Of a stretch of DNA of 57,603 bases, positions 56,088-57,603 are shown piece after piece (position 1 is the stretch's first letter; each line of letters starts with the position of its first letter). The translations under genes were made by a program, and so were the position numbers. This DNA is from a bacterium. GTDB taxonomy: Bacteria; Bacteroidota; Rhodothermia; Balneolales; M1805. The DNA is taken from contig SBGQ01000044.1 in NCBI GenBank assembly GCA_006226965.1, positions 1 through 57,603 on the forward strand. The letters are read 5' to 3'. A model generated the notes under the pieces. It saw only the letters and a list, made by a program, of their open reading frames with translations, ran no database searches and was not told where the DNA came from.

Positions 56088-57317
56088 TTAAGATTCTCGC
56101 GAAACCGGCATCGTCATACAGCGTGCGCCGCCTCTGCCTCTGCACAATTCATTTCCAATAAATGAAATGGCCAATTTGGTTTCAGGAGTTGGGTTAAACG
56201 ATTTGTCTTTGTAACGATCAATAAACTCAAATTGGTTTAATAATTCGTAACCATTTTCTTTGAGTGTGTTAAATGTATTGGTATTTCGCTCATATCCAAC
56301 AATTACACCGGGTGCTAAAGCAAAAACATTTGCTCCATCGGTCCATTGCTCACGGCTCTGATAAATCGGTAAATCTCCACCGCAATTAATAAAATTCACA
56401 GCATGTCCGAGTTTAGCTTCAAGTGCGTAATGTAGTGAAGGCATAAGCTTTGTTACCATTTCTCCGGATTCACTTTTCGATAGACAAACAACGTTATCTT
56501 TTCGTTTAATGATTGCCGGCGGGTAAACAATACATTCGTCATGTGAAGCGAATGTGAAAATCGTATCCAAATGCATAGAAGCGCGCTGTTTTGGAATATC
56601 AACAATTAACACATCTTTGATGCCAAATTTGAAAAAGGCTTCAGCCGCTTTCATAATTCCTGAGAAGGAAGTCCTTTCACTCATACCAACTAAAACGAGG
56701 TCTTTAGAAGGAATTAACACGTCGCCGCCTTCGATGGAATCGTAATATTCCAAGCGAAAAGCTTGTTCGCGAACTTTTGCAAAAAGCGGATGATATTCAA
56801 CAACGGTATCCATGAGCATCGATTCTCTGGCACGTGCTTTTTTTGCCGCTCTTGAAATGATGATTCCATCGTTGATAACTGCTGCTAAATCTCTGGTAAA
56901 TAAAATATTGGGAGATGGATAAATGCTAAAACCGCGAAGCCCGTCCGTGCGGCCGTTTATTGCAAATTCCAATAATTCGTTTGGTGATAGCATTCCCAAT
57001 TCTTGTTGAATCGGAGTTAAGTTCCATTCGGGAAATCGGTGAACTAGCAAATCGATGAAATAGGCGCGGGCATCTTCTTTTTGAAAAGCATCATAAATTA
57101 AATCACAAATTTCAAAAACACCGCCACCGCTTGGTAAAGCCGTTTTGAAAATATCGATCATGGCTAAGTGCTCTTCCCGTGCATCTGTTTCAAAAATGAT
57201 GTCATCAAATAACAATTCATCTTTTATATCGGGACTTACCAAGGTTACTTCTTTACCGGGTGTGTGTACAACAACTCCATTCAAACGTCCGGTTTCTGAC
57301 GATACATGTATGTTCAT
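56088..57317 (-). CDS. arcA: Arginine deiminase
   Basis: The enzyme converts arginine to citrulline and ammonia, the first step of the arginine deiminase pathway. ATG 57317 gives 409 residues. Family marks are MNIHVSSETGRLNGVVVHTP at the N-terminus, ELLFDDIIFE, FTRDLAAVINDGIIIS, the GGDVL guanidino-binding segment, ASMHLDTIFTF with a catalytic His, and the nucleophile Cys400 in the C-terminal GRGGARCMTMP. arcB (carbamoyltransferase) and arcC (kinase) are absent from the window, so a full ATP-yielding pathway is not shown. It is preceded by a -7 promoter element and a tandem-repeat region. Confidence 0.94.
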   Translation of the reverse strand: MNIHVSSETGRLNGVVVHTPGKEVTLVSPDIKDELLFDDIIFETDAREEHLAMIDIFKTALPSGGGVFEICDLIYDAFQKEDARAYFIDLLVHRFPEWNLTPIQQELGMLSPNELLEFAINGRTDGLRGFSIYPSPNILFTRDLAAVINDGIIISRAAKKARARESMLMDTVVEYHPLFAKVREQAFRLEYYDSIEGGDVLIPSKDLVLVGMSERTSFSGIMKAAEAFFKFGIKDVLIVDIPKQRASMHLDTIFTFASHDECIVYPPAIIKRKDNVVCLSKSESGEMVTKLMPSLHYALEAKLGHAVNFINCGGDLPIYQSREQWTDGANVFALAPGVIVGYERNTNTFNTLKENGYELLNQFEFIDRYKDKSFNPTPETKLAISFIGNELCRGRGGARCMTMPVSRES

Positions 57318-57349
57318 ATTCTCCAAATAGATCTATCTAAATTATAGTT

Positions 57350-57357
57350 CAAAGATA
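57350..57357 (-). promoter_or_regulatory. Bacteroidota-type -7 element before arginine deiminase
   Basis: On the minus strand this reads TATCTTTG, a match to TAnnTTTG, 32 bases upstream of the ATG at 57317. The tandem-repeat region begins about 30 bases farther upstream, at the place where -33 and upstream contacts would lie. Confidence 0.5.
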
Positions 57358-57387
57358 GTTATTCTTGGGTGAAAAGGCGTATATGGA

Positions 57388-57443
57388 AAAGGTATAAAGG
57401 TATAAAGGTATAAAGGTATAAAGGTGTAAAGGTGTAAAGGTGT
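57388..57443 (+). repeat. Octamer tandem repeat AAAGGTAT/AAAGGTGT
   Basis: Seven adjoining 8-base units: four AAAGGTAT (57388-57419), then three AAAGGTGT (57420-57443). The A-to-G change in the seventh base is shared by all later units, showing local duplication after mutation. Confidence 0.97.
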
Positions 57444-57448
57444 AAAGG

Positions 57449-57469
57449 TTTTAGGTTTTAGGTTTTAGG
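57449..57469 (+). repeat. Heptamer tandem repeat TTTTAGG
   Basis: Three perfect 7-base units follow the octamer array directly. A further partial copy (TTTAGG) reappears at 57488. Confidence 0.95.
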
Positions 57470-57486
57470 AGTAAGGAGTAAGGAGT
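57470..57486 (+). repeat. Heptamer tandem repeat AGTAAGG
   Basis: Two full units and a third partial one of a different 7-base sequence adjoin the TTTTAGG array with no gap. Confidence 0.9.
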
Positions 57487-57526
57487 ATTTAGGTTTTAAG
57501 TTTTTTGAATCAAAAATTTCTAAAAT

Positions 57527-57603
57527 CCGACATCCGACATCCGACATCCGACATCCGACATCCGACATCCGACATCCGACATCCGACATCCGACATCCGA
57601 CAT
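57527..57603 (+). repeat. Heptamer tandem repeat CCGACAT, continuing past the window
   Basis: Eleven perfect 7-base CCGACAT units fill 57527-57603 and reach the last base of the window, so the array is longer than seen. It is not a CRISPR, as there are no spacers. Between it and the AGTAAGG array lie about 40 bases of AT-rich sequence. Confidence 0.97.

Follow-up and report, generated by a model that had tools for sequence, protein, structure and literature searches.

A patch of 7-8 bp tandem arrays upstream of an arginine deiminase gene in a Balneolales genome is a dispersed member of the heptamer-repeat kind

Four families of tandem repeats at the end of a contig

The last 216 bases of a 57,603-nt stretch of DNA from a bacterium of the order Balneolales (hereinafter, the window, i.e. 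the whole of the stretch analyzed) contain four different families of 7-8 bp tandem repeats next to the 5' end of an arginine deiminase gene. Such an arrangement raises the question of what this patch is, by what route its arrays arose, and whether changes in their length might vary the expression of the neighboring gene, as had been proposed from the sequence.

All four families, which the original prediction had located at 57388-57603, were detected there by Tandem Repeats Finder, and all are given here on the forward strand. The octamer array (57388-57449; 7.8 copies of AAAGGTAT, 98% match, score 103) consists of four copies of AAAGGTAT followed by AAAGGTGT. The TTTTAGG heptamers (57446-57469; reported as AGGTTTT, 3.4 copies, score 48) and the AGTAAGG heptamers (57467-57487; reported as AGGAGTA, 3.0 copies, score 42) come next, and overlap from end to end joins these three arrays without a gap into a left, G-rich arm. 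Thus, the claim that the arrays follow each other is borne out for the first three families but not for the fourth, the CCGACAT heptamers (57525-57603; reported as ATCCGAC, 11.3 copies, 100% match, score 158), which are set off by a 37-base spacer (57488-57524) that lacks tandem structure and ends in AAATTTCTAAAAT. The CCGACAT array forms a right arm that is G-rich on the reverse strand and extends up to the contig end. The window is the entire contig C179 (1-57603) of a 3.78 Mb genome assembled in 184 contigs; hence the last array indeed runs off at a true contig end and not at an arbitrary cut, the array is an assembly break point, and the 11.3 copies are those counted up to that break.

As a chance control, period-7 and period-8 arrays were scored in 50 Markov-resampled windows, which yielded 14 such arrays in total, with a top score of 42 and none at 100 or above. 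An array with a score of 42 is, taken alone, at the edge of chance, whereas the cluster of four is beyond it. An Rfam search gave no match at E-values up to 1.

The arginine deiminase gene

The 5' end of the arginine deiminase gene (56088-57317, reverse strand; PF02274, E = 3.2e-73) faces the arrays as originally described, with the ATG at 57317 and the first perfect repeat unit at 57388, 70 bases apart. Bacteroidota promoters carry a box with the consensus TAnnTTTG, and the sequence TATCTTTG (57357-57350, reverse strand), which fits this consensus, is the only such box seen between the gene and the patch, with the arrays starting 30 nt behind it. The box is weak evidence of a promoter because 50 TAnnTTTG boxes are present in the window; scans for sigma-70 promoters and for terminators detected neither a promoter-like site on the strand of the arginine deiminase gene nor any terminator-like site. 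Given the location of the TATCTTTG box between the arrays and the ATG, changes in array length would fall behind the probable promoter. Phase-variable promoters have the array in the core promoter or in the coding region of the controlled gene, and relative to the putative promoter the arrays lie in neither.

The proposal that array length alters arginine deiminase transcription, making the patch a contingency (phase-variation) switch, draws on the location of the arrays directly upstream of the gene. However, the only TAnnTTTG box there lies within the 70 nt that separate the ATG from the first perfect unit, and the composite to which the patch belongs (see below) recurs at dozens of unrelated places, where it flanks unrelated genes and chiefly abuts stop codons at gene 3' ends. 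We therefore consider such a switch extremely improbable: control of the arginine deiminase gene by the patch is unsupported, and there is no sign that the patch was built for such control.

A composite repeat dispersed in the genome

A search of the organism's own genome with positions 57300-57603 as the query identified 47 matching places, so that copies of the repeats exist well beyond the locus at which they were noticed. The sample examined further comprises 36 own-genome stretches around these matches and the window, 37 altogether, with one additional fetched stretch, from genome G022, excluded. Tandem Repeats Finder assigned period 7 to 72 of the 115 arrays in this sample and period 8 to another 13, although the array density of the 36 stretches is biased upward because they were fetched for matching the window. 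By comparison, less selected 289 kb of the same genome (further contigs plus additional parts of those already sampled) contain no more than two arrays of period 7 and eight of period 8, which indicates that the patches are not everywhere in the genome. In 24 of the 37 stretches, the window included, a 7-8 bp array touches a true contig end (for example, in contigs C179, C70, C79, C20, C54 and C96), and thus this repeat family visibly fragments the assembly.

Many copies have a common core in which the words GGTGTAA and AGTAAGGAGTA are followed by AAATCAAAAATCTGCCATCAACCATCAAAAATTTCTAAAAT and then by (CCGACAT)n. Alignment of 17 flanks upstream of CCGACAT showed GGTGTAA in 10 of them, TCTGCCATCA in seven, and AGTAAGGAGTA and AAATTTCTAAAAT in six each; the latter exact word is the one that ends the spacer of the window copy, so other loci of the genome have the same spacer end ahead of their CCGACAT arrays. 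Most other copies contain a CCATCAACCATCA part, which is missing from the window copy. These features are consistent with the 216-base patch being one copy of a dispersed intergenic composite that combines a G-rich arm of 7-8 bp units, a short spacer and a C-rich CCGACAT arm; this assignment is part of the explanation developed below and is graded jointly with it.

In view of this core, the composite could be regarded as a small mobile element, non-autonomous and inserting at the ends of genes, whose termini are the expandable arrays. Indeed, AAATCAAAAATCTGCCATCAACCATCAAAAATTTCTAAAAT precedes CCGACAT, often after GGTGTAA and AGTAAGGAGTA, at many loci, and both ends of a copy can be flush with genes, as in L037 where, by eye, a stop codon is on one side and a start codon a few bases off the other. 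Nevertheless, neither a transposase nor a target duplication has been demonstrated, the core varies, the right arms of L034 and L042 follow unrelated sequence, and single arrays occur in other taxa without the core. We regard the mobile element as unlikely.

Strand polarity at gene boundaries

On their G-rich strand, CCGACAT arrays read (ATGTCGG)n, and the 5' end of this strand is often flush with a stop codon or within 2 nt of it, with junctions such as TGA/GATGTCGG and TAA/GATGTCGG or with overlaps of one to two bases between the array and the stop. The phase of the repeat unit at the junction varies, so the constant is the adjacency and not a target sequence. With genes called as open reading frames picked by length, not by trained annotation, and with related loci included in the counts, the G-strand 5' end of the 7-8 bp arrays in this genome lies within 5 nt of a same-strand stop codon in 20 of 52 cases, compared to 1 of 53 at the other end. 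The median distance to a gene 3' end is 1 nt for the G-strand 5' end (n = 28) and 197 nt for the G-strand 3' end; to a gene 5' end, the respective medians are 63 nt (n = 17) and 198 nt. When each region-arm is given one vote, the G-strand 5' end is the one nearer to a gene in 26 of the 27 own-genome cases, with a single exception.

Where a G-rich and a C-rich arm share an intergenic gap, the order is G-then-C in all seven own-genome regions, including the window; 12 multi-array regions were found overall, and convergent inverted pairs are present. Most arrays obey two rules: the G-rich strand has its 5' end next to a gene and, in gaps that contain both kinds of arm, the G-rich one comes first. 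The window complies with this polarity: its G-rich arm begins on the far side of the TATCTTTG box, at a distance of 70 nt from the arginine deiminase ATG. The genes whose stop codons meet an array (23 listed, 16 of them scanned) have varied housekeeping functions and include those for enzymes of histidine and tryptophan synthesis, a LeuA-like enzyme, coproporphyrinogen oxidase, HMG-CoA reductase, TrkH, an alpha-2-macroglobulin and a histidine kinase.

Arrays of CCGACAT in other phyla obey the gene-adjacency rule as well. A scan of species genomes for (CCGACAT)4 retrieved at least 104 stretches, of which 80 were listed, so that the taxonomic spread is that of a sample; those listed come from Algoriphagus, Oceanobacter, Thalassolituus, Zhongshania, Gilvimarinus, Acinetobacter, Planctomycetota, Acidobacteria, Bacteroidales, Saprospiraceae, Patescibacteria, Streptomyces and others, with Litoribacter ruber represented by locus L133. 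In species other than the source of the window, a same-strand stop codon lies no more than 5 nt from the G-strand 5' end in 35 of 114 cases against 1 of 108 at the opposite end and, when CCGACAT arrays are left out, in 13 of 37 against 1 of 37. The region-arm vote places the G-strand 5' end nearer to the gene in 43 of 54 cases (11 exceptions); without CCGACAT, the 15 of 21 votes amount to a weak trend.

The possibility that CCGACAT is a special heptamer was rejected. It was detected in 2 of the 128 genomes of the order and in 2 of the 394 genomes of the phylum, and its backwards control was found in 2 of the 394 as well; because it is no more common than this control, the only unusual feature is its spread in the present genome (213 overlapping hits). 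Another heptamer, GATTTCA (four copies), was found in 3 of the 394 phylum genomes compared to 1 of 394 for its control. One genome of the phylum (G498) has the same array coordinates as G135, the genome with the Litoribacter ruber locus L133, from which the phylum is taken to be Bacteroidota.

Turnover of repeat units at orthologous gene ends

The genus Algoriphagus was surveyed for two genes, both chosen because in one species a CCGACAT array follows the stop codon; each matched 57 of the 59 genomes, and 30 of these 57 loci were read per gene. With a lag-7 array defined as a run of at least 9 matches within 70 nt downstream of the stop codon, arrays were found at 9 of 30 orthologous 3' ends of the gene for an ABC-F-type ATPase and at 6 of 30 of the gene for a 4Fe-4S protein. 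No other lag between 3 and 15, except for 14, reached this threshold at the same 30 + 30 ends. The repeats comprise eight distinct circular units, namely TCGGATG, GGTCAGT, CAGTTGG, GCAGTTA, AGATTTC, TGGATGT, TCGGTTG and TGTCAGA. By eye, the sequence that follows the array looks conserved despite the change of unit (TAAGGCGAACTTAG after TCGGATG and TAGGCTAACTTTGA after GGTCAGT). The units differ and the period of 7 is constant at both orthologous stop codons, which implies that the place recurs and the sequence does not. The lag of 7 does not characterize 3' regions in general, as it was found at 1 of 202 ends in unselected stretches from an Algoriphagus-genus genome (G169), 0 of 161 in G024 and 1 of 199 in G011.

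The number of perfect copies at orthologous loci is 13, 12 and 5 in three Algoriphagus species, 22 versus 5 in Zhongshania, and 14 versus 6 in two Phycisphaerales. These differences between species make the origin of the arrays by slippage, as initially suggested, plausible. Nevertheless, pure slippage fails to explain the polarity, with the G-rich strand running away from the gene, the placement of the edge exactly at the stop codon, and the replacement of every unit of an array between species.

The Algoriphagus arrays at seven 3' ends (L203, L205, L208, L313-L315 and L317) are located between stop triplets, in the order stop, array, TAA or TAG, a bracketing that by eye resembles a three-base duplication. 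At five others (L218 and L221-L224), an inverted pair of GTAA-type heptads comes right after the same ABC-F-type stop codon. In Acinetobacter sp. HY1485, an 18-copy CCGACAT array (L140, 149-275) is flush at one stop codon; among 30 orthologous Acinetobacter loci, a lag-7 array was found at this query locus only and at none of the 29 others.

Possible function in RNA

The sense orientation of the arrays and their flush position at stop codons would fit a functional element at RNA 3' ends, in which the G/U-rich sense transcript right downstream of the stop codon, folded into either a hairpin that can be extended or a G-quadruplex of two layers, terminates transcription or shields the 3' end of the mRNA. 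Pure (GAUGUCG)n, the self-pairing of which runs through G-U wobbles, folds better than shuffled sequences (z = -4.73 in L032 and -5.15 in L203); furthermore, the array slot in some Algoriphagus species holds inverted heptad hairpins (z = -4.20 in L218 and -6.03 in L222), and in L229 it holds a plain terminator-like hairpin (z = -5.37). The window patch itself, however, folds like its shuffles (z = -0.51), and L053 folds worse (z = 1.58). All eight Algoriphagus units reach the maximum of 6 self-paired positions out of 7 on the sense strand, and none of the eight does so on the antisense strand, but units with permuted letters pair alike (6.8 of 8 expected for Algoriphagus, P = 0.25; 7 of 15 observed against 7.2 in the own genome), and AGTAAGG pairs at only 2 of 7 positions. 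Because permuted letters self-pair as often, the letter order is not selected, leaving only the G/T-rich composition of the sense strand to explain, and a self-pairing hairpin as a general rule was rejected. Terminator-like sites are not enriched after arrays: they were found at 1 of 9 array genes versus 70 of 255 genes in the own genome and at 2 of 23 versus 54 of 290 in others, i.e. in this small sample they are, if anything, rarer, a trend that might reflect replacement of terminators by the arrays. Taken together, an RNA 3'-end element appears doubtful although conceivable.

A tentative model for the origin of the arrays

The explanation that we favor, to the whole of which we assign a probability of about 0.52, combines the composite repeat described above with three processes. 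The arrays would gain and lose units of 7-8 nt through replication slippage, would be copied between loci by recombination, and would spread over non-essential gaps until a functional boundary is reached, either a stop codon or, as at the arginine deiminase gene, the back of a promoter. On this view, the majority of copies would be filler, tolerated and devoid of a dedicated role, and any effect of a patch would be expected at the 3' ends of neighboring transcripts as opposed to the initiation of arginine deiminase transcription. Slippage agrees with the purity of the period-7 arrays and the differences in copy number, copying between loci with the core that is common to many copies, and growth up to a selection-protected boundary with the flush edges. 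None of the three accounts for the polarity. In place of filler, the patches may alternatively have a role at transcript ends.

Polarity that points outward from either side of a gap, along with the replacement of whole units between flanks that look conserved by eye, would be accommodated by a dedicated addition process that extends the arrays outward from the gene boundary, in the manner of telomere repeats on a G-rich 3' end, and can swap units. We know of no enzyme or template for such a process, however, the diversity of units is too great for a single template, and slippage from different seeds explains much of what is observed; accordingly, dedicated addition seems highly unlikely. It is also improbable, in our estimate, that bacteria from several phyla have in common an active mechanism by which 7-base repeats are written at the ends of genes, always with the G-rich strand leading away from the gene, and the unit is erased and rewritten between species such that place and period are inherited and sequence is not; the window patch would then be the genome-wide two-armed form of such repeats.

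Should the polarity rule hold, the stop codon of the preceding gene sets the start of an array, the direction away from the gene sets its strand, and a neglected class of repeats known mainly as breakers of assemblies becomes open to tests of how 7-base units are made, of the reason for the polarity, and of why the unit changes at a constant place. The two Algoriphagus sites represent a ready comparative system for these questions.

Relationship to known heptamer repeats

Mrazek and co-workers have reportedly described a class of long simple sequence repeats with units of 5-11 bp (LSSR 5-11). The arrays described here resemble this class, as it is reported, in unit size, tandem length and an apparent tendency to expand; the class is not known to follow a positional or strand rule. 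As in that class, the long perfect arrays of the window exceed chance expectation.

The closest precedent is the GGGNATC and GGGGA(C/T)T heptameric repeats of Xanthomonas and Nostoc (Rehm et al. 2015; PMC4692102). In that work, the GGGNATC repeats are near the 5' ORF, show a stop-codon bias, form convergent pairs and vary in sequence between relatives, and no role was found for them. The arrays in the present genome likewise have seven-base units, are intergenic with varied neighboring genes, lie nearer to the ORF on the 5' side of the G-rich strand in either orientation, in many cases overlap or adjoin sense-strand stop codons, include convergent inverted pairs, and vary in length and sequence between related organisms. 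Thus, the seven-base period, the location of the G-strand 5' end by an ORF or stop codon, and the convergent pairs are all found here. The GGG tract is not: the units contain at most GG, the four in the window having GG or CC only, GGG is found in 0 of 15 own-genome heptamer units, and octamers are included. In addition, the CCGACAT arrays, mostly of 7-13 copies or more and many of them cut by contig ends, appear longer than the four-unit preference reported by Rehm et al.; several unit families are combined in one composite with a common spacer; and the phylum is Bacteroidota.

The TAACTGA heptamer repeats are present in Beggiatoaceae, Cyanobacteria and some Bacteroidetes (PMC4679880, which also mentions LSSR). 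These are intergenic heptamer arrays too, and in the Bacteroidetes cases they share gaps with other heptamers, with contigs often ending inside; however, most of them are forward-oriented and immediately precede start codons, and neither the TAACTGA unit nor this position is that of the arrays analyzed here. The (GATAGRA)n satellite of Chloroflexus aurantiacus resembles the present case in that one heptamer is scattered through one genome, and no gene-boundary rule is reported in the available text (PMC6749651). A literature search, mostly outside subscription journals, found no report of the composite, of the CCGACAT family or of the turnover of units at Algoriphagus stop codons. The patch is real and dispersed and belongs to the heptamer repeats, a kind whose positioning has already been described; its composite form is seemingly undescribed.

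Other repeats

The octamer family TTGATTAG / ATCAACTA is present at further sites, namely L305 (12912-12958), L311 (1-95), L058 (6025-6119) and L061 (2341-2409); two sites have 11.9 copies at a contig end. At three loci (L031, L035 and L036), a second dispersed repeat, which has a small TTCACGTTTCGTGAAG-like palindrome, is located before the CCGACAT arm in place of the usual G-rich arm. This repeat looks like an element of the REP or MITE type, and its copy in L036 has the matching ends CCCTCTT...AAGAGGG.
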